Of a DNA stretch of 64,000 bases, positions 10,804 through 56,631 are shown piece after piece. The stretch lies in NCBI RefSeq assembly GCF_040253635.1, contig NZ_JBEJGX010000001.1, positions 62,001-126,000 on the forward strand, written 5' to 3'. The notes beneath the pieces were generated by a model. It searched no databases. It worked only from the letters and a program-made list of their open reading frames with translations, and had not been told where the DNA came from. Source of the stretch: Streptomyces sp. Edi2 (GTDB taxonomy: Bacteria > Actinomycetota > Actinomycetes > Streptomycetales > Streptomycetaceae). How positions within the stretch are numbered: the first letter of the stretch is position 1; each line of letters starts with the position of its first letter. Made by a program: the position numbers and the translations under genes.

Positions 10804-11082
10804 ATGACCGATCAACCGGCAGAGACACCACCTGAGCCCGACACCGAGATCACCGCGAGCGTCACCGTCACCGGCAGCCAGGCTGCGCTGCTGCGTGACC
10901 TTGCCGCCGTCCTCGGCCGGACTCCTGAGGCCCTCGCCATTGAATGGGCCGCCGGGGCGCTGCGCATTCCCCCAGCCTCGGTCGGCGAGACTGTGCCCCC
11001 AGACGACTGGGGACTGTTCGATGGCCCAGCCGACCTCTCGGCTCACGCTCACGAACTCCTCCGTGAGGAGCTGGGCCGGTGA
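10804..11082 (+). CDS. probable antitoxin (VapB-like)
   Basis: 92-residue acidic protein; ATG start with GAGGAG ten bases upstream. After a Pro/Glu-rich start, residues 20-55 form a short helix-turn-helix or ribbon-helix-helix-like region (VTGSQAALLRDLAAVLGRTPEAL). The C-terminal half is acidic (PPDDWGLFDGPADLS) and ends in a helix, as in antitoxins that wrap their toxin. The stop codon overlaps the GTG of the PIN-domain gene (GTGA), which is typical of vapBC operons. The partner makes the antitoxin role likely; the DNA-binding fold is inferred. Confidence 0.75.
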   Translation: MTDQPAETPPEPDTEITASVTVTGSQAALLRDLAAVLGRTPEALAIEWAAGALRIPPASVGETVPPDDWGLFDGPADLSAHAHELLREELGR

Positions 11083-11546
11083 CCGATGCGCCACCGCCTA
11101 TCGCCGTTGTTGATACCTGCGTGTGGCTCGCCGCCTACAACCGGAAGGACCACCATCACCAAGCCGCGGTCACAGCACTCGCCGCCCCGCGCATCCTGAT
11201 CACATCCCCGCTCGTCCTGGACGAACTCGACCACCTGCTCACCGGCCGTGCCGGCGAACACATCGCGGTTGAGGCCGTCACCCGAATCGGCGCCCTCGCA
11301 CGTACGGGATCCCTCCAAATCCCCGCTGTCGACGGCCGACTGCTCGGCGAGGCTGAGGATTTGATGCGCGCATACTTGGGCCATCGGCTTGGGCTCACCG
11401 ACTGCGTCAACGCCGCTCTGACGTGGAGACTGAACCGACCCACCATCCTGACCATGGACCACCACTACACGGATGTACTCGCCCCCCGTACACGCAGTGA
11501 ACGGCGACTCGAAGCCCTCCCTGGCCCAATCCACACCCCGCGCTAG
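11079..11546 (+). CDS. PIN-domain ribonuclease toxin (VapC-like)
   Basis: 155-residue PIN-domain protein. It opens with the hallmark VVDTCVWLAAYN, in which the first acidic residue is Asp12. It then has the conserved Glu in PLVLDELDHLL, the Asp in LGLTDCVNAA and the final Asp in TILTMDHHY, so the four metal-binding acids of an active PIN nuclease are present. VapC toxins cleave tRNA or rRNA and are neutralised by the upstream antitoxin. The GTG start overlaps the antitoxin stop, so translation is coupled. Such pairs stabilise plasmids; whether this one does so here is inference. Confidence 0.88.
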   Translation: MTDAPPPIAVVDTCVWLAAYNRKDHHHQAAVTALAAPRILITSPLVLDELDHLLTGRAGEHIAVEAVTRIGALARTGSLQIPAVDGRLLGEAEDLMRAYLGHRLGLTDCVNAALTWRLNRPTILTMDHHYTDVLAPRTRSERRLEALPGPIHTPR

Positions 11547-11642: not shown

Positions 11643-12551
11643 TCAGACGGTCAGCTGGGTGTCTTGCTGGCCAGCCGCTGGCAGGCTGATCTGCTGTCCT
11701 GCTGGGCCTGCGACGATGCTCAGATCCCTCCAGTCGTCAGGATCCGCCCCGGCCGGCCAGCCGAGGTCTGCGTAGGGAACCGGCTCCCGCTGGCCGCGCA
11801 CGCGCATGAACGTCACTCGCTCCATGACGCGCCCACGCGCCGTACCGCGGCCATCGCCCTCGAGGCGCACCAGCAAGTCGTAGCCGAACGGAGAGTCCAG
11901 CGGTGCCACCAGGACCCCGCCGGGGCGCAGCTGGTCCAGCCACGCCTGCGGGATGCGGCGCACTGAGGCGGTAGCCACGATGCGGTCGTACGGCCCACCG
12001 GCCGAATAGCCGAGTTCACCATCGCCCGCGATGACGACGGGATGAATCCCCAGTGCGGCGAGCCGTTCCTTGGCCCTGGCAGCCAGCTCAGCGTCGATCT
12101 CGATCGTCGCCACTCCCGCGGCGCCGACGCGGTGGGCGAGCAGCGCTGTCGTGTATCCGGTGCCCGTCCCGATCTCCAGCACCCGGTCGCCCGACCGCAG
12201 CGCCAGGTGCCGCAACAACTCGACGATCACTCCGGGGGCGGAGATGCTGGAGGTGAGCGCCCCCTTCGCCCGACTATTGGGAAGCACCGCCCCGTCGTCC
12301 ATCTGCGTAATCAGCGCTACCGCAGGCTCGTAGACCATCGTGAGCCAGGTCTGCGGCTGCTGTGTCCGGTCGAGCAAGGTGTGCAGGCCGTCCTCGCCCG
12401 GGGTCTGCCACCACACCTTGTCCTGCACGAAGCGCTCCCGCGGCACGCCCAGGAACGCATCACGCAGCCAATCGCACTCACCGAACCCGCGCGGGCTGCT
12501 GGCCATTTGCTCTGCGCAGCGCTGCCGCAGAATCTCCGCCGTCACCGCCAT
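11643..12551 (-). CDS. PIMT-like O-methyltransferase, candidate RiPP enzyme
   Basis: 302-residue methyltransferase homologous to protein L-isoaspartyl methyltransferases. SAM-binding motif I is VLEIGTGTGYT (residues 124-134), preceded by the conserved SSIS segment (101-104) of PIMT-like enzymes. The N-terminal part (VPRERFVQDKVWWQT, then WLTMVYEPAVALITQMDDG) matches the branch associated with ribosomal peptides (graspetides, lanthipeptides, imiditides) rather than housekeeping repair PIMTs, and the protein is longer than a repair PIMT, with a C-terminal extension. These enzymes methylate an Asp side chain, which then closes to aspartimide. The start codon lies six bases after the stop of the small peptide gene at 12558-12707, and its ribosome binding site (GAGGGG) lies inside that gene, so the two are translated together. 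Confidence 0.82.
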   Translation of the reverse strand: MAVTAEILRQRCAEQMASSPRGFGECDWLRDAFLGVPRERFVQDKVWWQTPGEDGLHTLLDRTQQPQTWLTMVYEPAVALITQMDDGAVLPNSRAKGALTSSISAPGVIVELLRHLALRSGDRVLEIGTGTGYTTALLAHRVGAAGVATIEIDAELAARAKERLAALGIHPVVIAGDGELGYSAGGPYDRIVATASVRRIPQAWLDQLRPGGVLVAPLDSPFGYDLLVRLEGDGRGTARGRVMERVTFMRVRGQREPVPYADLGWPAGADPDDWRDLSIVAGPAGQQISLPAAGQQDTQLTV

Positions 12552-12557
12552 CGCGTG

Positions 12558-12707
12558 TTACCCCTCGTCGTCCGGATCCGGATCTGGATCCGGCGGCGGC
12601 ATCTCGTTTCCTGGGTCCCCTGGAGACGAATAGTCCCCGCCGACCTGACCGTCGCCCGACTGCCGGTCGCCCCCATACCTGACAACTCCCGCCCCACGAC
12701 GCTGCAT
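12558..12707 (-). CDS. candidate precursor peptide (imiditide-like)
   Basis: 49-residue peptide starting at ATG 12707 with GGAGG four bases upstream. The N-terminal third is basic (MQRRGAGVVRYGG). The rest is Gly/Asp-rich and ends in an alternating Pro-Asp run, PPPDPDPDPDDEG. Six of its nine Asp residues lie in the last 20 residues. It has no Cys, and only scattered Ser. Stand-alone PIMT-like enzymes next to a short acidic peptide define the imiditide RiPP family, in which one Asp is converted to aspartimide. The arrangement here matches: peptide gene first, six-base gap, methyltransferase, no other tailoring enzyme. Precursor status is inferred from context and composition. Confidence 0.7.
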   Translation of the reverse strand: MQRRGAGVVRYGGDRQSGDGQVGGDYSSPGDPGNEMPPPDPDPDPDDEG

Positions 12708-13113
12708 ACAGCCTCCGTCCGACGTCTTGTACAACCCACGGTAGACAGGCGCCCCGCCCTATGGGACGGATTCGGCGACATCCGCCCAACACGGCCCGCC
12801 TGGCCGGCCTCGGGCACTCGTCGGCCTCCATGGCGCCGATGCCGTGCCGGCCGCTCACACGCGCAGTGGACCGGGAGCCGACGGCCGGGCAGCGGTACGG
12901 CCCGGAGTCCGGCGGACCACCGAGCTCGGCGCGTCGGGACGGAGAAGGTAGTCAGACGACGGTGACACTAGTGCGGCCGGAGTGGCGCGAGGGGCGGTAG
13001 CCGCGGGGCGGCGGGGCGCAGCGGCGGCCGTAGACCTGGGCCGGAGCACGGGCAGGGCGATCAGAGCCAGTCGGCGGCCTGTGTCCACAGGGCGACACAC
13101 TGAGGCTGCGTCC

Positions 13114-21730: not shown

Positions 21731-23083
21731 TCAATAGCGGTGGGTGTCCTTAGCGTCGGTCATCTGCACGACCATGCAAGTCTGGCCGTCCACCTTCACG
21801 CCTTCGTGAACACCGACCACCACCCACTCCGACCCTCGGGGCATGAGGCGTTCGCGCTCCTCGTTCTCGAACACCGATACTTCGGCGACCGCCGCACCGC
21901 GCCGGGTGACGGACTCGAAGACCACGCCGCAGTCCGCATTACCCCACCCTTCAGAGGTGGACCACGAGGTGTTGGTGAAGCCAGCCGCAACGGAGGGACA
22001 ATGTGATACGGACATGTAGGAGTCGTCCCGGTAGCGGGAACCTACCTGGAAGTTTTCCCGTACCCAAGACGCCACACGCTGCTCCTTTCGGACCTCCATG
22101 GGGGGCGTGAATCCACGAAAGACGTGATGGTGGGTATCCGACACTCCTGCGGAGGCGATGGCGGAGTCCAAGTGCCCAGTGACCTCGCGCATGGGCGTCG
22201 ATGCGTAGCCGGCGCCCTCGTCGAGGCTCTTACCTTGATACAGGTGTTTGTTGATCGAGCTGTAGGCCGAGCCTGTGTATGCCTGCACCCACTGGCGCTG
22301 GTCGGAGTTGAGGCCGGCCACCCACTTCTGCGACTCGGGGACCAGACGGGCGGCGTGCTCACCAGGCAGGCGGTCCCGGGTGGTGCCGTCGGACAGGCCG
22401 TGCCGCTCCCAGGGTTTCGCCGGGCGGCGGGAGGCGGCGGCGCGGATGATCTGCTCGGCATGGTCGGCAGGGACGCGGTCGTAGATGACCTGTCCGTTTT
22501 CTGTCCGGTAGGGCCAGGGTGAGTCCGCGAGTGCCTGGTAGCGGTCGCGGTCGAGGCGGTGGAAGACGAGCCGGGCGTGCGGAGGCTCGTCCTCTGAGCC
22601 CGGGTAGACCGTCGCCGCGCCACCGAAGTCCTTGTCGTTCCACGCAACGGTTTGTCCGCCGTCTTGCCGGGTCGGCATGAGCCTCGCGCGACCACCGATC
22701 CCGGCGGCACCCGCGAGGGCTCGCGCCGTACGCTGCTCCTCCGGCGGCGGTGCCGGGGCAGGCGCATGGAGGAAGCCGGGGTCGGCAGCGTCCGGGTAGG
22801 GCTGCTTCGGACGCCGGCCTCGCAGAAGTGCGCGCGTCGCCGTCGCGCACCGCTTGGCGTTGTCCGCAAACATCCTCGCCTTGGCGTCGTCGCCAGCTTC
22901 GATGGCCTCCTTGGTCCGTGCCGCCCACTCCTGGGCATTGGTGAAAGCGGCCTGAGCTGGATGCCCGTCCCCAGCGGCGACGACGTCCTGAGCGAGTTGC
23001 TTCGAAGAAGCGCGTTTGGCCGCTCGCATGGCTGGGTGAGAGGACGTGCACCGCCTGCCGCCGCTCGATATTGACCTGCACAC
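21731..23083 (-). CDS. ADP-ribosyltransferase exoenzyme-like protein
   Basis: 450-residue protein; GTG start with GAGAGGAG seven bases upstream. The N-terminus CRSISSGGRRC is a motif seen at the start of many actinobacterial phage and plasmid proteins. The C-terminal 170 residues fit the ADPrib_exo_Tox family (PF03496) with the R-S-E order of catalytic motifs: Arg in HHVFRGF (about 320), SYMSVS (about 356) and ERE before RLMPRGSEW (about 408). Such enzymes transfer ADP-ribose from NAD to a protein or nucleic acid. No signal peptide is visible, so it probably acts inside a cell or is delivered by another route. No immunity gene is evident beside it. Confidence 0.8.
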   Translation of the reverse strand: MCRSISSGGRRCTSSHPAMRAAKRASSKQLAQDVVAAGDGHPAQAAFTNAQEWAARTKEAIEAGDDAKARMFADNAKRCATATRALLRGRRPKQPYPDAADPGFLHAPAPAPPPEEQRTARALAGAAGIGGRARLMPTRQDGGQTVAWNDKDFGGAATVYPGSEDEPPHARLVFHRLDRDRYQALADSPWPYRTENGQVIYDRVPADHAEQIIRAAASRRPAKPWERHGLSDGTTRDRLPGEHAARLVPESQKWVAGLNSDQRQWVQAYTGSAYSSINKHLYQGKSLDEGAGYASTPMREVTGHLDSAIASAGVSDTHHHVFRGFTPPMEVRKEQRVASWVRENFQVGSRYRDDSYMSVSHCPSVAAGFTNTSWSTSEGWGNADCGVVFESVTRRGAAVAEVSVFENEERERLMPRGSEWVVVGVHEGVKVDGQTCMVVQMTDAKDTHRY

Positions 23084-29886: not shown

Positions 29887-32478
29887 CTAGGCCAGGGAAT
29901 TGATGAGATCTGACGCAGTCAGGAGGTTGACCATGTCAGCATCTAGGCCAGCCGGGTACAGGGCGAAGACCTCGCTGCCGGGCGAAAGGTCGAAGTCTCC
30001 GCGCAGGACGTACGCCAGCTGCGCCTTGTGGAGCTGGACGTCGGCGACGCTGTCGACAGCCGGGGTGCCAATCCGGGCCGCGAAGGTGGCCACGTTCTCA
30101 TCCGTGTGTCGCTGGTAGACGCTCACGGATTCGTCGGTGTGCCGGCGGATAACGGTGCTCGCGCGGCCCGCAGCGTGCCAGTTGGCCAGTTCGCCGAGGC
30201 CAATGCGTGCACCTGAGGTGAACAGGCCCGTAAGCCCCGAGCCGAGGGTGGCCAGGGCGTCGACGTGGCGGTGTACCGCGTGGTTGGTTCCAGTGACGCC
30301 CTGGACGACGTCGAGCCATCGCATGGTGCGGCCAGAGACGTCGATGATCATGGGCACGCTGGCGCGGGCGCGGCCGGTGAGGTCGAAGCGCTGCTCGACC
30401 TGTCGGGGCTCGAAGACGTCCCCGGCCTCGCCATCGTCGTCACGGACCATGAGTCCCGCGAACGCTTCGGCGAGGTCGTCGAAGGCGACGTTGTTGTACG
30501 AGAAAACACTGGCAACGACGTAACGGACGCCTGCGGCGGCCAGCTTGTCCAGGTCGAGGTCGACGAACTCGCTGGCACCCCGAGGGGCCGGGGCGCTCGT
30601 CAGGTCGCCCGAGTGGACAGCCGCGTCGCGCATGTAGCGCAGGCAGGTGTAGTCGCAGGTTCCGATGTGGCCCCATTCTGCGCTGAACATGGCGATCGAC
30701 AGGTCCAGGTCCGTACGGCCAGAGGCGTCGCTCTCCATCCAGTGCAGGAAGAGGCGTGCCGTCCGGCCGGCGGGGACCGGCAGCTCGGTGCCGCGCGGGA
30801 GGGTTACGAGGGCTCGGGAGGCGGTGCGTTCCGCGAACGGCGCGATCACGCCGTCAAGGGCGGCGTCGATGACCGCGGTGTCCACCGGCTTCAGCGCGGA
30901 GGTGCGGCGCAGGACTTCGCCGGTCATGGTGTCGACCGCGCGGTCGACCACGTCGGCGGGCAGCGGCGTTCGCTTGTCCTCGACGATGTGGGCCTTTGCA
31001 TTGCCGCCCTTGGGAAAGTAGACGCGCTCACGGTGCCGGCGGGCACGGGTGCGTATCTGGCCGAGTGCCGACAGCAGGACGGCCGGGGACACCTGCGGAA
31101 CAGCCTGTTCCACCGCGGACAGGACGATGTCCGCCCCGTGCCGGTCCGCCAGGCGCAGTAGGTGGTCGAGGCGGCGCAGCAGCTCTCCGGGGCGCTGCGC
31201 GAGCAGCGCCACGGCCGCAGTGCTGTCCCTGTCGGCCAACGCGGCCTCCACCTTCGAGGACCACAGCGGGATGGTGATCTTCGCGTCGGATGCGGTGACG
31301 GTCGGCAGTGTCTGTGCGGTGGTGCGCAGTCGCTGCGAGAGGCCGTCCCCGGTGAGGCGGAAGTTCCGCAGTGTCGCGATGGCGAGGGCTGCTCGCGGGT
31401 AGCGGGCCGCGTATTCGAAGGGGTGTAGGCGTTCGGCGGCGTGCTTCCATGCCTTCGCGTGCCGGCGCATGTCCTCGGCCATCAGGGTCGGGGCCAAGTC
31501 ATCTAGGACCGCGAGGAGCGCGCGCCGCAGTGGGCGCGGGACTGCGGCGAACCGCGGCACGGTCACCAGGCCGGCGTCTCCGCCGGAGCGCACCACGAGC
31601 AGGCGCAGCACGTCGGTCGCCGTGGTGAGTTGGGCGGAGGCCGTGGGCAGCGTCACCTCGTAGGCGGTGGGATCCGCAAGTAGCCAGGCCAGTACGAGGG
31701 CCTTGGTTTCACGGCCCGGGATTGCCTCGGGCAGCCAGGCCGGCGCTTCGGATCGGTCGCGGGTTTCCAGCAGGACGGCCAGGTCGTCGGCGTCCTGTGG
31801 GCTCAGCGCGGTGGTCCGGGCGATGAGGGCACCCAGTTCGTGTGCGGCGTGGCTGGAGCGGGCAGTGAGATCGCCGCCGTGGAACAGGAGGCGCAGGCGG
31901 GCAGGCAGAGCACGGCTGGGCCGAGGCGCCCGCCGTGCACGCTGGGGGCGCAGGAACGGTTCGTCGACGTCGAGCTGGCGGTGGCAGATCGGGCAGGCAG
32001 AGAAGTCAGTGCCGTCGAAGCAGGTGCGGCACACGAGGTGAGCACACGGGGAGACCGCGTGCACGGTGCCGTCGGCGCCGCACAGCACGCAGGGTTGCTG
32101 CGGAGTCTGAACGAGGATCGTCAGCACGCGTTCGACATAGAAGGCGAGCGTGTCCTTGGGGGTGCTCTCCGGGAAGCCGCGGAACAGCGGGGTGTGGTCG
32201 CGGTCTGCGCCGAGAGCGTGGTCGATGTCGGCCAGGAGTGCGCGGCCCTGAGCGGTGAGAGCGTGGGTGTCCAGGCCGGCCAGGGCCTTGCTAAGTCCAG
32301 CCGACAGCAGGTAGCCGCGCTCCAGGAGATCGGCTTCCAGCAGCGCGACGCCGGCCTGAGCCTCCAGGCCGGGCTTGCCGGCTGGAGCGGGCAGGTAGAC
32401 GGCGCCGCGACGAGACAGCAGAACCGCGGAGAGGCTGCGGTGGCTGTGCGTGGTGGTGGGGATGGACGTGGTCGTCAT
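29887..32478 (-). CDS. RING-finger protein with TerD-like domain (SCO0854/MXAN_6230 type)
   Basis: 863-residue protein; ATG start with GAGAGGAA five bases upstream. A true RING-HC finger lies at residues 130-165: Cys130, Cys133, Cys145, His147, Cys150, Cys153, Cys162 and Cys165, with the usual CPIC end. The middle is helical. Residues about 600-790 resemble a TerD-type domain (DLDLSIAMFSAEW, VHSGDLTSAPAP, FVDLDLDKL, FEPRQVEQRFDL). This matches the family NCBI names MXAN_6230/SCO0854 RING-domain proteins. RING domains usually recruit ubiquitin-type enzymes; none is seen here, so the zinc module may serve protein binding. TerD-like domains bind calcium and act in stress or phage resistance. Confidence 0.88.
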   Translation of the reverse strand: MTTTSIPTTTHSHRSLSAVLLSRRGAVYLPAPAGKPGLEAQAGVALLEADLLERGYLLSAGLSKALAGLDTHALTAQGRALLADIDHALGADRDHTPLFRGFPESTPKDTLAFYVERVLTILVQTPQQPCVLCGADGTVHAVSPCAHLVCRTCFDGTDFSACPICHRQLDVDEPFLRPQRARRAPRPSRALPARLRLLFHGGDLTARSSHAAHELGALIARTTALSPQDADDLAVLLETRDRSEAPAWLPEAIPGRETKALVLAWLLADPTAYEVTLPTASAQLTTATDVLRLLVVRSGGDAGLVTVPRFAAVPRPLRRALLAVLDDLAPTLMAEDMRRHAKAWKHAAERLHPFEYAARYPRAALAIATLRNFRLTGDGLSQRLRTTAQTLPTVTASDAKITIPLWSSKVEAALADRDSTAAVALLAQRPGELLRRLDHLLRLADRHGADIVLSAVEQAVPQVSPAVLLSALGQIRTRARRHRERVYFPKGGNAKAHIVEDKRTPLPADVVDRAVDTMTGEVLRRTSALKPVDTAVIDAALDGVIAPFAERTASRALVTLPRGTELPVPAGRTARLFLHWMESDASGRTDLDLSIAMFSAEWGHIGTCDYTCLRYMRDAAVHSGDLTSAPAPRGASEFVDLDLDKLAAAGVRYVVASVFSYNNVAFDDLAEAFAGLMVRDDDGEAGDVFEPRQVEQRFDLTGRARASVPMIIDVSGRTMRWLDVVQGVTGTNHAVHRHVDALATLGSGLTGLFTSGARIGLGELANWHAAGRASTVIRRHTDESVSVYQRHTDENVATFAARIGTPAVDSVADVQLHKAQLAYVLRGDFDLSPGSEVFALYPAGLDADMVNLLTASDLINSLA

Positions 32479-32938
32479 TGCCGTTCCTCTCTGCCCGGTA
32501 GTGCCCGGCGCAGCACGTTGCTGGTCAGGAAAGCTGTTTTGCAGGCGTTCACGTCGCCGATAGGGGAAGTGAACGCCTTCTGGCCTGTCCTGGAGAGAGG
32601 GGAAGGCGGTCGCTTCAGTGCCGTACGGGGCGCGGACAGCATCCAGCTCAAAGCCAACGCGCCGCCGCTGCGGCGTGGTTGGGGCGTACAGGCTCAGGGG
32701 TCCCTGCATGGTGGGCAGCTGGTTTTGATCACCCTGAGGTCTGCGGACCGGCTGACTGTCAGGTGCGGGGGCGGGAAGTGAGCGCGCTGGATTCTTTTAC
32801 CAGAGAGTTGAGAAGGAAGCACGCTGGAGCCGCCCCGCGGGCCTGACGGTACAAGCTGCGGTTCGCGAACGCATTGGAATTGTGGTTGCCGGCGGCGTCA
32901 CCACTGGCACCATTCGGTTCGGAGTGGATCTGACGGCA

Positions 32939-43573: not shown

Positions 43574-44809
43574 TCAGGCCGTGTGCAGACCTTCGCGTTC
43601 CCAGCTCCGCAAGCGCGCGTAGTCCCGCTCCACGACGTCCCGCTGCTTGGCAGCGAGGTAGACGTGTCCCGGGGAGCTGAGCAGGTCACTGGTCGGCGGG
43701 ATGTTGTCGCCCGGGTCGACGGAGGAGAAGACCGCTACGGCGCTGGAGAGCTCGGCGACCCGGCCGAGGGCTGCGGCATTGGCTGGCCCCTGGTAGTGGT
43801 TGACGAACTCGACGTGGCGCAGCGTGCCGTTCCAGGCCACCTGGTTTTCGTCGAAGTTCAGCAGGTCCTGGGGGTTGAGCATGGCTGTGGCGGCAAGGGC
43901 TGTCTGGGATATGCCCCCCGAGTAGCGTTCGACGATGTCGGGAACCGTTGCCCCGCCGAGCCGAGCGCCGGTCTCTATCAGCACGGGGCCGCGGGCCGTG
44001 AGGATGACCTCGGTGTGGGCAGGTGTCGCACGGATGCCGAGGGCATCGAGCACGGCGAAGGTGAAGTGGCGCAGGATGCTCGCCTCGTGGGTCGAGGGCG
44101 CCAGTGGCTCTTCGTAGTCGTAGACCGGGGTGGAGGTCGCATTGGCCTGCTTGGTGTATTGCCAGATCTCGGCGACACGGTGGTGGCCGTTGTGGGAGAC
44201 GGTGTTGATGTAGTACTCGGTCCCGATGAGGCGTTCTTGGATGAGGGCGGTGTGGTTGCTTCTTCCGAATATTGTCTTTGCGTCCAGAACAGAGACGCAG
44301 GCTGCCTCGACCTGCTGGGCGGTACGGCAGAAGCGGACGTGGTCGGTTCCGGCCGAGGCCAGCGGTTTGACGACAGCTTCGGCCAATCCGGATGCAGTGA
44401 ACCAGGCGGCGGCGGTCGCGGGTGTGCTGGCGACGCTGGCGCGTGGCGTGGCGAGTCCTGCCGATCTGACGGCTTGGGCCATCAGGGCTTTGTCCCGGCG
44501 GGCCGCCAGGTGGCCGGGGGTATTGGTGGGCAGGCCGAGCTTGAGCGAGAGGATCTCGGCCGTGGTGACTCCGGATTCGGCTCCGGCTGTCACTCGGGAG
44601 ACGCCCATGCTGGCCAGCTGGTTCGCCACGGTGCGCAGATCCGCGGTGTATTTGAGGTCGCAGGTGTAGTGGTGGGCGTTGAAGGATCGCTGGAAGTGAT
44701 CGTTGATCACCGGTTGGCTCTGGAGGTGGATGCAGTCCACTCCCTGCGCGTGAAGTCGCCGGGCCAGGGTGGCGCCGGTGGAGTACCCGTCGACGATCGC
44801 GATTGTCAT
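43574..44809 (-). CDS. ATP-grasp ligase
   Basis: 411-residue ATP-grasp enzyme; ATG start with CGAGGAAA upstream. The ATP-grasp core runs from about residue 110: AVVKPLASAGTDHV (glycine-loop region), IQERLIGTEYYINTV, and the metal-binding end TARGPVLIETGARLGG. The N-terminal domain (TIAIVDGYSTGATLARRL) resembles the biotin-carboxylase-like fold of carboxylate-amine ligases, so it probably joins an amino acid or similar amine to a carboxylate using ATP. The substrate is unknown. It is the last gene of a three-gene minus-strand set, 78 bases after the CoiA-like gene. Confidence 0.88.
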   Translation of the reverse strand: MTIAIVDGYSTGATLARRLHAQGVDCIHLQSQPVINDHFQRSFNAHHYTCDLKYTADLRTVANQLASMGVSRVTAGAESGVTTAEILSLKLGLPTNTPGHLAARRDKALMAQAVRSAGLATPRASVASTPATAAAWFTASGLAEAVVKPLASAGTDHVRFCRTAQQVEAACVSVLDAKTIFGRSNHTALIQERLIGTEYYINTVSHNGHHRVAEIWQYTKQANATSTPVYDYEEPLAPSTHEASILRHFTFAVLDALGIRATPAHTEVILTARGPVLIETGARLGGATVPDIVERYSGGISQTALAATAMLNPQDLLNFDENQVAWNGTLRHVEFVNHYQGPANAAALGRVAELSSAVAVFSSVDPGDNIPPTSDLLSSPGHVYLAAKQRDVVERDYARLRSWEREGLHTA

Positions 44810-48169: not shown

Positions 48170-49069
48170 TCACCAGCCGTCCGGCGTCTTCGGGAAGGCG
48201 CCGATCGTCGGCAGACCCAGCCGGATGCTCTCCCGCTCCCGGCGATTCCGGCCCAGCCGGTACACGTACCGATGCACACCGCGATGCCGCTGATTTCGTG
48301 CTCCCACGGCCACCAGCGCCTCCCGGAGCCACACCTTCGGGTCGGCTCCGACACGAAGGGCCGGAGCCCCCAGGCCGATCAGTAGCTTTTCGGCATACTC
48401 GTGCCCCTGCTCCTGGCGGCGCACCTTCTGGGCCATACGCTCGTTCAACACCACGCCGTTCGGCAGCAGCTTCACGGTCCGCGGCGTCGCCCGGCCCATG
48501 TAGATCGCGTTCGTGGCCTGGTAGATGGTGCCGACGTGCCCGACAGCCACCGGGGCTCCCGAGGCATCCCTACGCGGTACGGGGTCGGCGAACGAGACGA
48601 TCCCGCGCACGCCGAGCACTAGGAGCTCGTCGAAGCAGCGGGCCAGGAACCAGCTCTCGGCGTTCGCCGGGCACTCGTCCATGAGGACGAACCGCGAGCA
48701 CTCCAGCGACTCGACGTACGGCTGGAGGTCCGGCAGGGGCCGGGTCAGCACGGCTGCCGTGACCGGCACCCCGAACACGGCCACCCCGCACAGCTGCGCC
48801 TCGCCGGCGCCGATGTCGTACAGACCGAAGCGGAACCGCGCGGAGGGGAAGGACCCGGAGTAGTGATGCCCCACGACGAACTCCTTCGCCGCGGTCTCGG
48901 GCAACGCCTCGACCGCGTATCGCCGGGCATCGAACCCGCCCTCGCTGACATGGCGGAAGGAGTGCCGTCGGCCTCGCCACCGTTGACACCAATCGGAGGC
49001 GTTGGGAATCTCGGTCAAGTCGTCGAAGGGGAGAGTGTCTTGGACGAGACTCAGCATTCGGGAGCCCAT
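48170..49069 (-). CDS. mom: Mom-family adenine methylcarbamoylation protein
   Basis: 299 residues. The start at ATG 49069 overlaps the stop of the truncated copy upstream (TGATG); ATG 49057 is possible. Family hallmarks are GHHYSGSFPSARFRFGLYD, SLECSRFVLMDECPANAES, GVRGIVSFADPVPRR, GHVGTIYQATNAIYMGR and NERMAQKVRRQEQGHEYAE. Phage Mu Mom converts adenine in DNA to N6-carbamoylmethyladenine, which blocks many restriction enzymes. Here it probably protects the replicon when it enters a new host. It is the third gene of an overlapping operon that starts at 50021. Confidence 0.88.
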   Translation of the reverse strand: MGSRMLSLVQDTLPFDDLTEIPNASDWCQRWRGRRHSFRHVSEGGFDARRYAVEALPETAAKEFVVGHHYSGSFPSARFRFGLYDIGAGEAQLCGVAVFGVPVTAAVLTRPLPDLQPYVESLECSRFVLMDECPANAESWFLARCFDELLVLGVRGIVSFADPVPRRDASGAPVAVGHVGTIYQATNAIYMGRATPRTVKLLPNGVVLNERMAQKVRRQEQGHEYAEKLLIGLGAPALRVGADPKVWLREALVAVGARNQRHRGVHRYVYRLGRNRRERESIRLGLPTIGAFPKTPDGW

Positions 49070-49488
49070 CACCCTGCTACCGTCATCGACCAAGCGGCAA
49101 CACGCGAAAACCGTCCGCAGAACCGCGAGCACACCAGCGAGCCGCGGCTCGGCTCCAGTTCGGGAAACGTGGCCGAGAGCACGTGCGCGCCGGCCGGGGT
49201 GCCGAAGACGGCGACCCCGACCAGCTCCAGGCCGCTTCCGCCGTCGTGAAACAGGCCCAGGCGATGACTCGCCGACGGATAGCTGCCCGAGTAGTGGTGC
49301 GCGATCACGAACGCCTTTGCCACCGTCTCCGGGACGGGGCCGACGCTGTACCGGCGGTAATCGAAGCCCCCGTCACGCACGCGCCGCCACGAGGGCGTGC
49401 GATGGGTCCAGCGCCTGCACCAGTCGGAGGCGGTGGCGACCTCCGCCAACTCCGCCAGCGGCAGGGCCTGCTGATGCGCAGCGATCAC
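49069..49488 (-). pseudogene. truncated second Mom gene
   Basis: 139-residue N-terminal half of a Mom protein. SDWCRRWTHR, GGFDYRRYSVGPVPETVAKAF, AHHYSGSYPSASHRLGLFHD and LVGVAVFGTPAG align with residues 20-110 of the complete Mom downstream. Homology stops at SLVCSRF, the same point as SLECSRF in the full copy. It then continues for 16 unrelated residues to a stop that overlaps the next start. The C-terminal half, including the SFADPVPRR region, is missing, so it is probably inactive, although it remains in a translationally coupled operon (its GTG overlaps the previous stop). Confidence 0.8.
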
Positions 49489-55851: not shown

Positions 55852-56631
55852 TTACCGGGCGTCCCGCGCCGCCCGAACGGATCTTTCAAGAGCGGCGAGC
55901 AGGTCGCCGAGTGGCTGTGGCTGCGGCGGCGACTCGATCTGCCGGTCCGCGATCTTCGCATCCACCAGCGCCTCCAGTGCGTCTCGGGAGCGGTCGCGCA
56001 AGTCGTCCCCCTCCACACCGGTCAATTCATGCATCAGCAGTTCGGCCAGCGCCATCTCCCGGTCGGTGACGGGGGTTGAAGGGGCGAGATTGCCCGGGTC
56101 ACGGACTTCATCGGGCCACAGCAGGGTCTGTAGCACCAGCACACCGTGGCGGGGTCGGAGTATGGCCAGGCGCTCGCGGGTGCGGATCACGACCCGGCAG
56201 ACGGCCACGACCCCGGCGCGGGCCAGGGCAGCCACAAGAAGCGAGTAGGCACGCCCTGCGGCCTCGCCCGCAGGGCCGGCGTAGTAGGCCCTGCTGTAAC
56301 TGATCGGGTCGACATCGTCGGCTGGCACGAATCCGTGCACCTGGACTTGGTGGCGCGTCGCCAGAGGAAGGCGGTCCAGGTCAGCATCCGTCAGTTGCAC
56401 CATGCCTCCGTCGCCGGGCAGCTCGAATCCGCGGCCGACGTCCTCGTAAGGGATCTCTTCTCCGTCCAGCTCGCACACCCGCTTGTGCCGGATCCGCCCG
56501 CCGTCCGCCTTGTGGATCTCCCTCAGTCGCACGGCGTGCTCAGCGGTCGCGGAGTACAGGCGGATGGGCAAGTTCACCAGGGAGAACGAGATCACTCCGG
56601 TCCACACTGCCCTTGGCGGAGAGGCGTTCAT
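55852..56631 (-). CDS. ku: Ku protein (non-homologous end joining)
   Basis: 259-residue bacterial Ku. It begins AVWTGVISFSLVNLPIRLYS, the invariant Ku opening, then CELDGEEIPYEDVGRGFELP and LVVAALARAGVVAVCRVVIR-like core strands, and ends with the helical region MALAELLMHELTGVEG. Ku forms a ring on double-strand DNA ends and recruits ligase D; no LigD is present here, so it would rely on a host ligase. On a linear replicon it could affect repair or stability of ends. The start is weakly supported. A long palindrome lies upstream. Confidence 0.93.
   Translation of the reverse strand: MNASPPRAVWTGVISFSLVNLPIRLYSATAEHAVRLREIHKADGGRIRHKRVCELDGEEIPYEDVGRGFELPGDGGMVQLTDADLDRLPLATRHQVQVHGFVPADDVDPISYSRAYYAGPAGEAAGRAYSLLVAALARAGVVAVCRVVIRTRERLAILRPRHGVLVLQTLLWPDEVRDPGNLAPSTPVTDREMALAELLMHELTGVEGDDLRDRSRDALEALVDAKIADRQIESPPQPQPLGDLLAALERSVRAARDAR

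Follow-up and report, generated by a model that had tools for sequence, protein, structure and literature searches.

An acidic peptide gene and a short PIMT-type methyltransferase gene in Streptomyces sp. Edi2: a probable imiditide-like unit

The Peptide and Methyltransferase Genes

The stretch of DNA discussed here, further called the window, comprises 64,000 nucleotides of Streptomyces sp. Edi2 (RefSeq assembly GCF_040253635.1, contig NZ_JBEJGX010000001.1, positions 62,001 to 126,000; G000:C1:62001-126000 in our numbering). It is part of a contig (C1) of 328,740 bases in a 9.8-Mb genome assembled in 6 contigs. Two adjacent genes in the window encode a small acidic peptide and a homologue of protein isoaspartate methyltransferases (PIMTs). 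An initial annotation had proposed that they constitute an operon for an imiditide, i.e., a ribosomally synthesized and post-translationally modified peptide (RiPP) carrying an aspartimide. The pair is present as described, and both genes are located on the minus strand, which had not been specified. The following features can be discerned:

11643..12551, minus strand: PIMT-like (PCMT) methyltransferase of 302 aa without the C-terminal domain core characteristic of RiPP PIMTs
11754..11774, minus strand: YADLGWP, apparent remnant of a WXXXGXP motif (residues 260-266, 12 residues after the FM of FMRVRGQR)
12558..12707, minus strand: precursor-like peptide gene of 49 codons (ATG at 12707, TAA at 12560-12558)
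12558..12566, minus strand: GAGGGG-TAA, ribosome-binding stretch of the methyltransferase gene at the end of the peptide gene
12561..12599, minus strand: acidic tail PPPDPDPDPDDEG, a putative recognition element rather than a set of imide sites
12648..12653, minus strand: codons of D19-G20, candidate site of an aspartimide (relatives have Asp-Gly or Asn-Gly)
12712..12716, minus strand: GGAGG, ribosome-binding site of the peptide gene

The translation of the peptide gene is MQRRGAGVVRYGGDRQSGDGQVGGDYSSPGDPGNEMPPPDPDPDPDDEG. This product is composed for a large part of Gly (22.4%), Asp (18.4%), and Pro (16.3%), has 9 Asp residues and 1 Asn, and contains neither Lys nor Cys. Its net charge is -7, as is that of its final 15 residues, in which D40, D42, and D44 each precede Pro. 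The good ribosome-binding site that had been attributed to the gene was recovered, with a spacer of 4 bases to the ATG. Also the short gap between the genes was found as described: 6 bases separate the peptide gene from the methyltransferase ATG (12551), and the ribosome-binding site of the latter gene lies within the former, of which the last two sense codons read GAGGGG. Both genes share one frame.

Conservation of the Peptide and of the Gene Pair

In a phylogenetic tree (FastTree, 223 rows), the methyltransferase belongs to a group of 100 rows of short enzymes (245-334 aa; support 98), some of which represent the same enzyme twice. Upstream DNA was fetched for 25 loci of this short group, and 22 distinct loci were left after removal of the identical L027, L127, and L130. 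A peptide of the type found in the window (class 1), with the motif (D/N)G(Q/E)VGG..(S/A)(S/A)PG(D/E)PG(N/S), is encoded at 16 of them. A second type of acidic peptide, containing TG(D/N)G or TDNG, is encoded at four others (L112, L113, L126, and L129). At L121, a degenerate peptide without the site is found beside an enzyme gene that is frameshifted and thus split between two frames, and L030 is discussed below. Hence, a homologous peptide adjoins related methyltransferases in other genomes and plasmids, a point on which the initial annotation had staked its proposal.

A profile search of ~5.8 billion proteins yielded 35 peptide relatives at E <= 0.1 among 314 candidates. All 35 keep Arg15, Gly20, Gly23, Gly24, and Gly33 (window numbering), and 34 keep Val22, Ser27, Pro29, Gly30, Asn34, and Pro37. 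Some of the relatives are almost leaderless (forms of 36-41 aa). Over the 22-codon core of the peptide (91 pairs from 14 distinct sequences), the mean proportions of synonymous (pS) and non-synonymous (pN) differences were 0.63 and 0.19, respectively, in frame and 0.20/0.34 in the two other frames, and third codon positions were ~3 times as variable as first and second positions. Because pS exceeds pN and variation is concentrated at third positions, the peptide is a real protein under protein-level selection. In a sample of 121 genomes of the family, a class 1 peptide (E <= 1e-5) was found in one genome only, i.e., that of the window itself.

No widely recurring third gene was found beside the pair; a regulator-like open reading frame (ORF), present at only 4 of 20 loci and variable in place and strand, was discarded as a candidate. 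The expectation that the peptide would escape gene annotation was borne out only in part. Seven plasmid records were inspected, of which one is devoid of any annotation. In five of the six annotated ones, the homologous peptide is listed as a "hypothetical protein," and it is absent from the incomplete gene table of the sixth.

The Candidate Modification Site

Succinimides form most readily at the dipeptides Asp-Gly and Asn-Gly, which are also classic sites of spontaneous isoaspartate (isoAsp) formation. Asp-Pro cannot form a succinimide, since Pro has no backbone N-H to close the aspartimide ring. Position 19 is occupied by Asp in 26 of the 35 peptides, by Asn in eight (one of these, P0147, was read by eye), and by Gly in one, and Gly invariably follows. 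In P0148, the peptide with Gly at position 19, the reading frame continues into an enzyme that breaks off after its first 52 residues. At the 16 class 1 loci, the site contains Asp 11 times and Asn five times, and the second peptide type has Asn three times and Asp once. Being the sole Asp in a conserved ring-competent place, D19, together with G20, is likely to be the modified site, as judged from these sequences. The position of D14 is variable (Asp in 21, His in 12, and Ser in two of the 35 peptides). D31 is Asp in 31 of the 35, with Pro at the next position in 33. N34 is conserved in 34 and is also succeeded by Pro in 33; as Glu takes that place in the window peptide, N34 may be a weaker second candidate there. 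The alternating Pro-Asp tail had been presented as an unusual set of possible aspartimide sites. This idea was abandoned, since D31, D40, D42, and D44 all precede Pro, which offers no backbone N-H, and relatives do not keep a (PD)n pattern in the tail.

On a tree of 35 enzymes, 34 of which had a known state, four changes between Asp and Asn are needed (4-5 in bootstraps), and the well supported branches alone force two. For this count, 10 database enzymes were paired with peptides because their contigs had equal lengths, not from DNA that was read, and the Asp state of four long outgroups was assigned by eye. Residue 105 of the enzyme, in a TSSIS(A/S/C) loop, was considered as a tracker of the Asp/Asn state, as it is Cys in 10 of 10 Asn-type and in four of 22 Asp-type enzymes, but this pattern was set aside because it is confounded by the tree.

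The Methyltransferase and Its Relatives

The match of the enzyme to Pfam PCMT (123 bits) extends from residue 101 to 253 and starts at profile position 54. Since it starts only at residue 101, the N-terminal part of the enzyme differs from that of repair PIMTs. The best NCBIfam model is TIGR04188 (ATP-grasp system methyltransferase) with 247 bits over residues 27-263, and the model for FxLD-system methyltransferases gives 129 bits. Four models of repair PIMTs give 89-127 bits, and the cut-offs of the repair equivalogs are missed (111 bits vs. 159 for TIGR00080; 127 vs. 188 for PRK00312). Thus, the assignment of the enzyme to the RiPP side by the initial annotation is upheld by these scores, even though the score for TIGR04188 is below its cut-off of 380 bits.

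A protein search with the enzyme scored 7998 candidates and yielded 1432 matches, with a listing of the best 120; the named members of the short group among the matches listed are all from Streptomyces. In the tree, the short group is set among enzymes of at least 344 aa, and eight short enzymes of Actinomadura and L049 fall elsewhere. Among 392 sampled genomes of the genus, 15 contained a match at E <= 1e-55, 10 of which belonged to the short group, including one broken enzyme. The short group is, therefore, rare.

The eight Actinomadura enzymes (L040, L053, L054, L061, L064, L088, L089, and L092) form a separate group of short PIMT homologues of 269-306 aa, and peptides with the CXXCXGXG motif of cysimiditides are encoded upstream of L053, L054, and L089. 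The C-terminal part of PIMT homologues may have shrunk twice, i.e., in the Streptomyces short group and in the Actinomadura group. In Streptomyces sp. TLI_146, the C terminus of a short-group enzyme (P0080) is extended by a sequence that resembles an ordinary imiditide precursor and ends in NTDGQSTTVGGGDSGTHRKDK. The genome of strain Edi2 encodes four further PIMT homologues on contig C3 (G000 L002, L005, L006, and L007), and upstream of these are small ORFs that contain Gly, Pro, and Lys and look like ordinary imiditide precursors. Another PIMT relative, with 41% identity over residues 91-253, is encoded ~20 kb from the pair, outside the window (G000:C1:53512-53991).

Loss of a C-terminal Domain and Reversal of Charge

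An extra C-terminal domain is common to all RiPP PIMTs according to a review (PMC13001092). When the C terminus of the window enzyme was compared with those of RiPP methyltransferases, as the initial annotation had advised, the core of this domain (beta-alpha-beta4-alpha) proved to be lacking: ~87 residues are missing internally, and two fold models, which constitute the stronger argument, predict an enzyme without it. In profile comparison, the C-terminal remnant still gave a local match (E 4.6e-5, 68.6% probability) and only 17% in a global alignment. The WXXXGXP motif, which is present in 96 of 114 long enzymes, is degenerate in the short group. In 100 rows, its Trp is kept in eight and replaced by Tyr, His, or Phe in 72, and the remaining 20 show no or another match.

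The peptides that accompany the two kinds of enzymes differ in charge. In 34 short-group peptides, Lys accounts for 0.6%, and the net charge of the final 15 residues has a median of -6 (range -10 to -4). The corresponding values for 33 candidate peptides beside long enzymes are 11.1% and 0 (range -5 to 3); as these candidates were hand-picked and loci without a plausible peptide were omitted, their make-up is indicative only. For the enzymes themselves, the median net charge is -3 across 109 short rows, including nine from outside the group, vs. -15 across 114 long rows. The loss of the domain combined with an acidic peptide tail would fit a swapped polarity of recognition. The peptide of L032, a near relative of the long type for which the peptide could be read, is strongly acidic as well; hence, acidity of the peptide may have preceded the loss of the domain.

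Relation to Known Systems

A layout of two genes is described for imiditides, also called type I pamtides (PMC13001092; PMC10787088). The window pair resembles these systems, exemplified by NmaA/NmaM and SpaA/SpaM, in combining a peptide with a PIMT homologue without any other primary RiPP enzyme. Further similarities are a precursor rich in Gly, Pro, and Asp of comparable size (~45 residues vs. 49 aa in the window) and the single conserved aspartimide-competent position. In contrast, imiditide precursors are rich in Lys and positively charged, whereas the window peptide is acidic, its relatives are nearly free of Lys, and Asn also occurs at the site. Moreover, the window enzyme lacks the core of the C-terminal domain, does not have an intact WXXXGXP motif, and carries less negative charge. 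Thus, the class named by the initial annotation is the best fit as to layout and composition, but positive charge, C-terminal domain, and WXXXGXP are wanting, and the sequences suggest a variant beside this class rather than a plain member.

Other systems are more distant. Cysimiditides (type II pamtides) likewise consist of a PIMT homologue and a small peptide, and short enzymes are found there too, in Actinomadura. However, their peptides have two CXXCXGXG motifs, the two short groups are apart in the tree, and the absence of Cys from the 49-residue window peptide, which precludes a zinc ribbon, rules out this class. The graspetide methyltransferases (TIGR04188; ThfM, AmdM) provide the best model for the enzyme, but the window pair has no adjoining ATP-grasp ligase, the score is below the cut-off, and the domain core is missing. 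As compared with repair PIMTs (PDB 3lbf, 1i1n, and 2yxe), the window enzyme gives lower scores with their models, has a dedicated peptide partner, and has a different N-terminal part; the repair PIMT of T. maritima (1dl5) has the extra domain.

In the literature searched, as far as accessible, no description was found of acidic, domain-less, or Asn-type members, nor of a RiPP imide derived from Asn. Under the 300-aa length filter of Lee et al., 51 of the 100 short-group rows would be retained. A conserved group without the domain and without positive charge makes the general statements of the review on these features (PMC13001092) testable, and the short enzyme is a smaller object for structural work. 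The Asp/Asn swap provides a natural means of testing which residue undergoes modification and whether a RiPP pathway can be fed by spontaneous deamidation.

Proposed Modification and Alternative Explanations

We consider it probable that this gene pair is an imiditide-like RiPP unit in which Asp19 is methylated and converted into an aspartimide. The short enzyme would bind the linear peptide, probably via its acidic tail. By analogy with SpaM and NmaM, it would methylate the Asp19 side chain, within SGDGQVGG, with S-adenosylmethionine as the donor, after which the ester would collapse onto the N-H of Gly20 to yield the aspartimide, and part of the latter would hydrolyze to isoAsp and Asp. In the Asn-Gly relatives, spontaneous deamidation would generate the initial imide, with the enzyme subsequently re-activating the resulting Asp or isoAsp; the occurrence of Asn-Gly versions suggests that deamidation may feed the same imide. 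Spontaneous isoAsp formation at an Asn has been described for the graspetide SsfA by Lee et al. (PMC10787088), which makes such chemistry plausible in these peptides. A more far-reaching proposal is that the short group constitutes a charge-reversed branch of imiditides, in which the recognition domain was cut out with retention of the two strands beyond it and in which Asn-Gly and Asp-Gly are interchangeable at the imide site, as the enzyme would be able to act downstream of spontaneous deamidation. This idea is tentative and, on balance, somewhat doubtful. If correct, the Asn members would be RiPPs with an imide derived from Asn, and the recycling of isoAsp known from repair would be joined to dedicated peptide modification.

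Several observations plead against an imiditide-like unit. A negatively charged loop in the C-terminal region of NmaM is important for modification, according to the review (PMC13001092), and, since the window enzyme is without the domain containing this acidic loop, recognition must be different. When peptide and enzyme were folded as one chain, the peptide part was disordered, in an alignment that contained no relatives of the peptide. Asn rather than Asp is at the site in eight of the 35 peptides. At one of the 22 loci, L030, only the tail of the peptide is left and the head is missing, beside an intact enzyme; its paralogue in the same genome, L029, is a full pair, and the two enzymes are identical at 285 of 301 residues. 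In L109, uniquely among the six annotated plasmid loci, a gene for a second, class I S-adenosylmethionine-dependent methyltransferase is located 6 bases behind the enzyme gene, and this unit may thus have three genes. Finally, as no repair PIMT was included among the tree rows, the separation from repair enzymes is based on model scores and not on the tree.

Alternatively, the enzyme could act on isoAsp only, recycling spontaneously formed isoAsp and thereby keeping the peptide in the Asp or imide state without methylating Asp directly. The Asn-Gly (8/35) and Asp-Gly sequences, being classic sites of spontaneous isoAsp formation, and the absence of the extra domain, which most repair PIMTs also do not have, would agree with such a role. 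We nevertheless regard it as unlikely, as the linkage of the peptide gene to the enzyme gene is unexpected for a general repair enzyme, and the TIGR04188 score is approximately twice that of the best repair model. A similarly low probability is assigned to the option that the peptide, carried on mobile DNA, serves the methyltransferase as a small partner or regulator instead of being a natural product precursor, with Asp/Asn-Gly as a timer or switch. It would account for the lack of a widely recurring neighbor gene, hence of any visible dedicated transporter or protease, for the presence of several copies on plasmids, and for relatives of 36-41 aa with almost no leader; however, known imiditide clusters also consist of two genes only, as stated in the review (PMC13001092). 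Far less credible still is the view of the pair as what is left of a graspetide cluster or as its satellite, in which case the peptide would first be modified by an ATP-grasp ligase encoded elsewhere and then methylated. Such a system is hinted at by the best model (TIGR04188), by two ATP-grasp peptide ligases over the cut-off in the genome, and by conserved Ser residues in the peptide core. Yet, TIGR04187 matches, four in total, occur solely on contig C3 and not on contig C1, which carries the pair, no ATP-grasp protein is annotated beside the pair at the six annotated plasmid loci, and the core contains hardly any Thr or Lys. As a ligase is not present nearby, this explanation was discarded.

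Other Genes in the Window

A gene for an ATP-grasp_4 protein (43574-44809, minus strand) is present in the window at 31 kb from the pair. Convergent with the methyltransferase gene, a small ORF overlaps the gene for a PIN-domain protein (10804-11546, plus strand; Pfam PIN, 38.8 bits); together, these are possibly a VapBC-like pair. The minus strand further encodes a 450-aa protein with a match to an ADP-ribosyltransferase domain in its C-terminal part (21731-23083; 37.4 bits), a 940-aa protein with a prokaryotic RING finger (29887-32709; Prok-RING_4, 69.6 bits), and a protein of the Mom family, which is a DNA-modification family (48170-49132; Pfam Mom, 90.7 bits). A Ku protein is encoded on the same contig as the pair, at 55852-56631 (minus strand).
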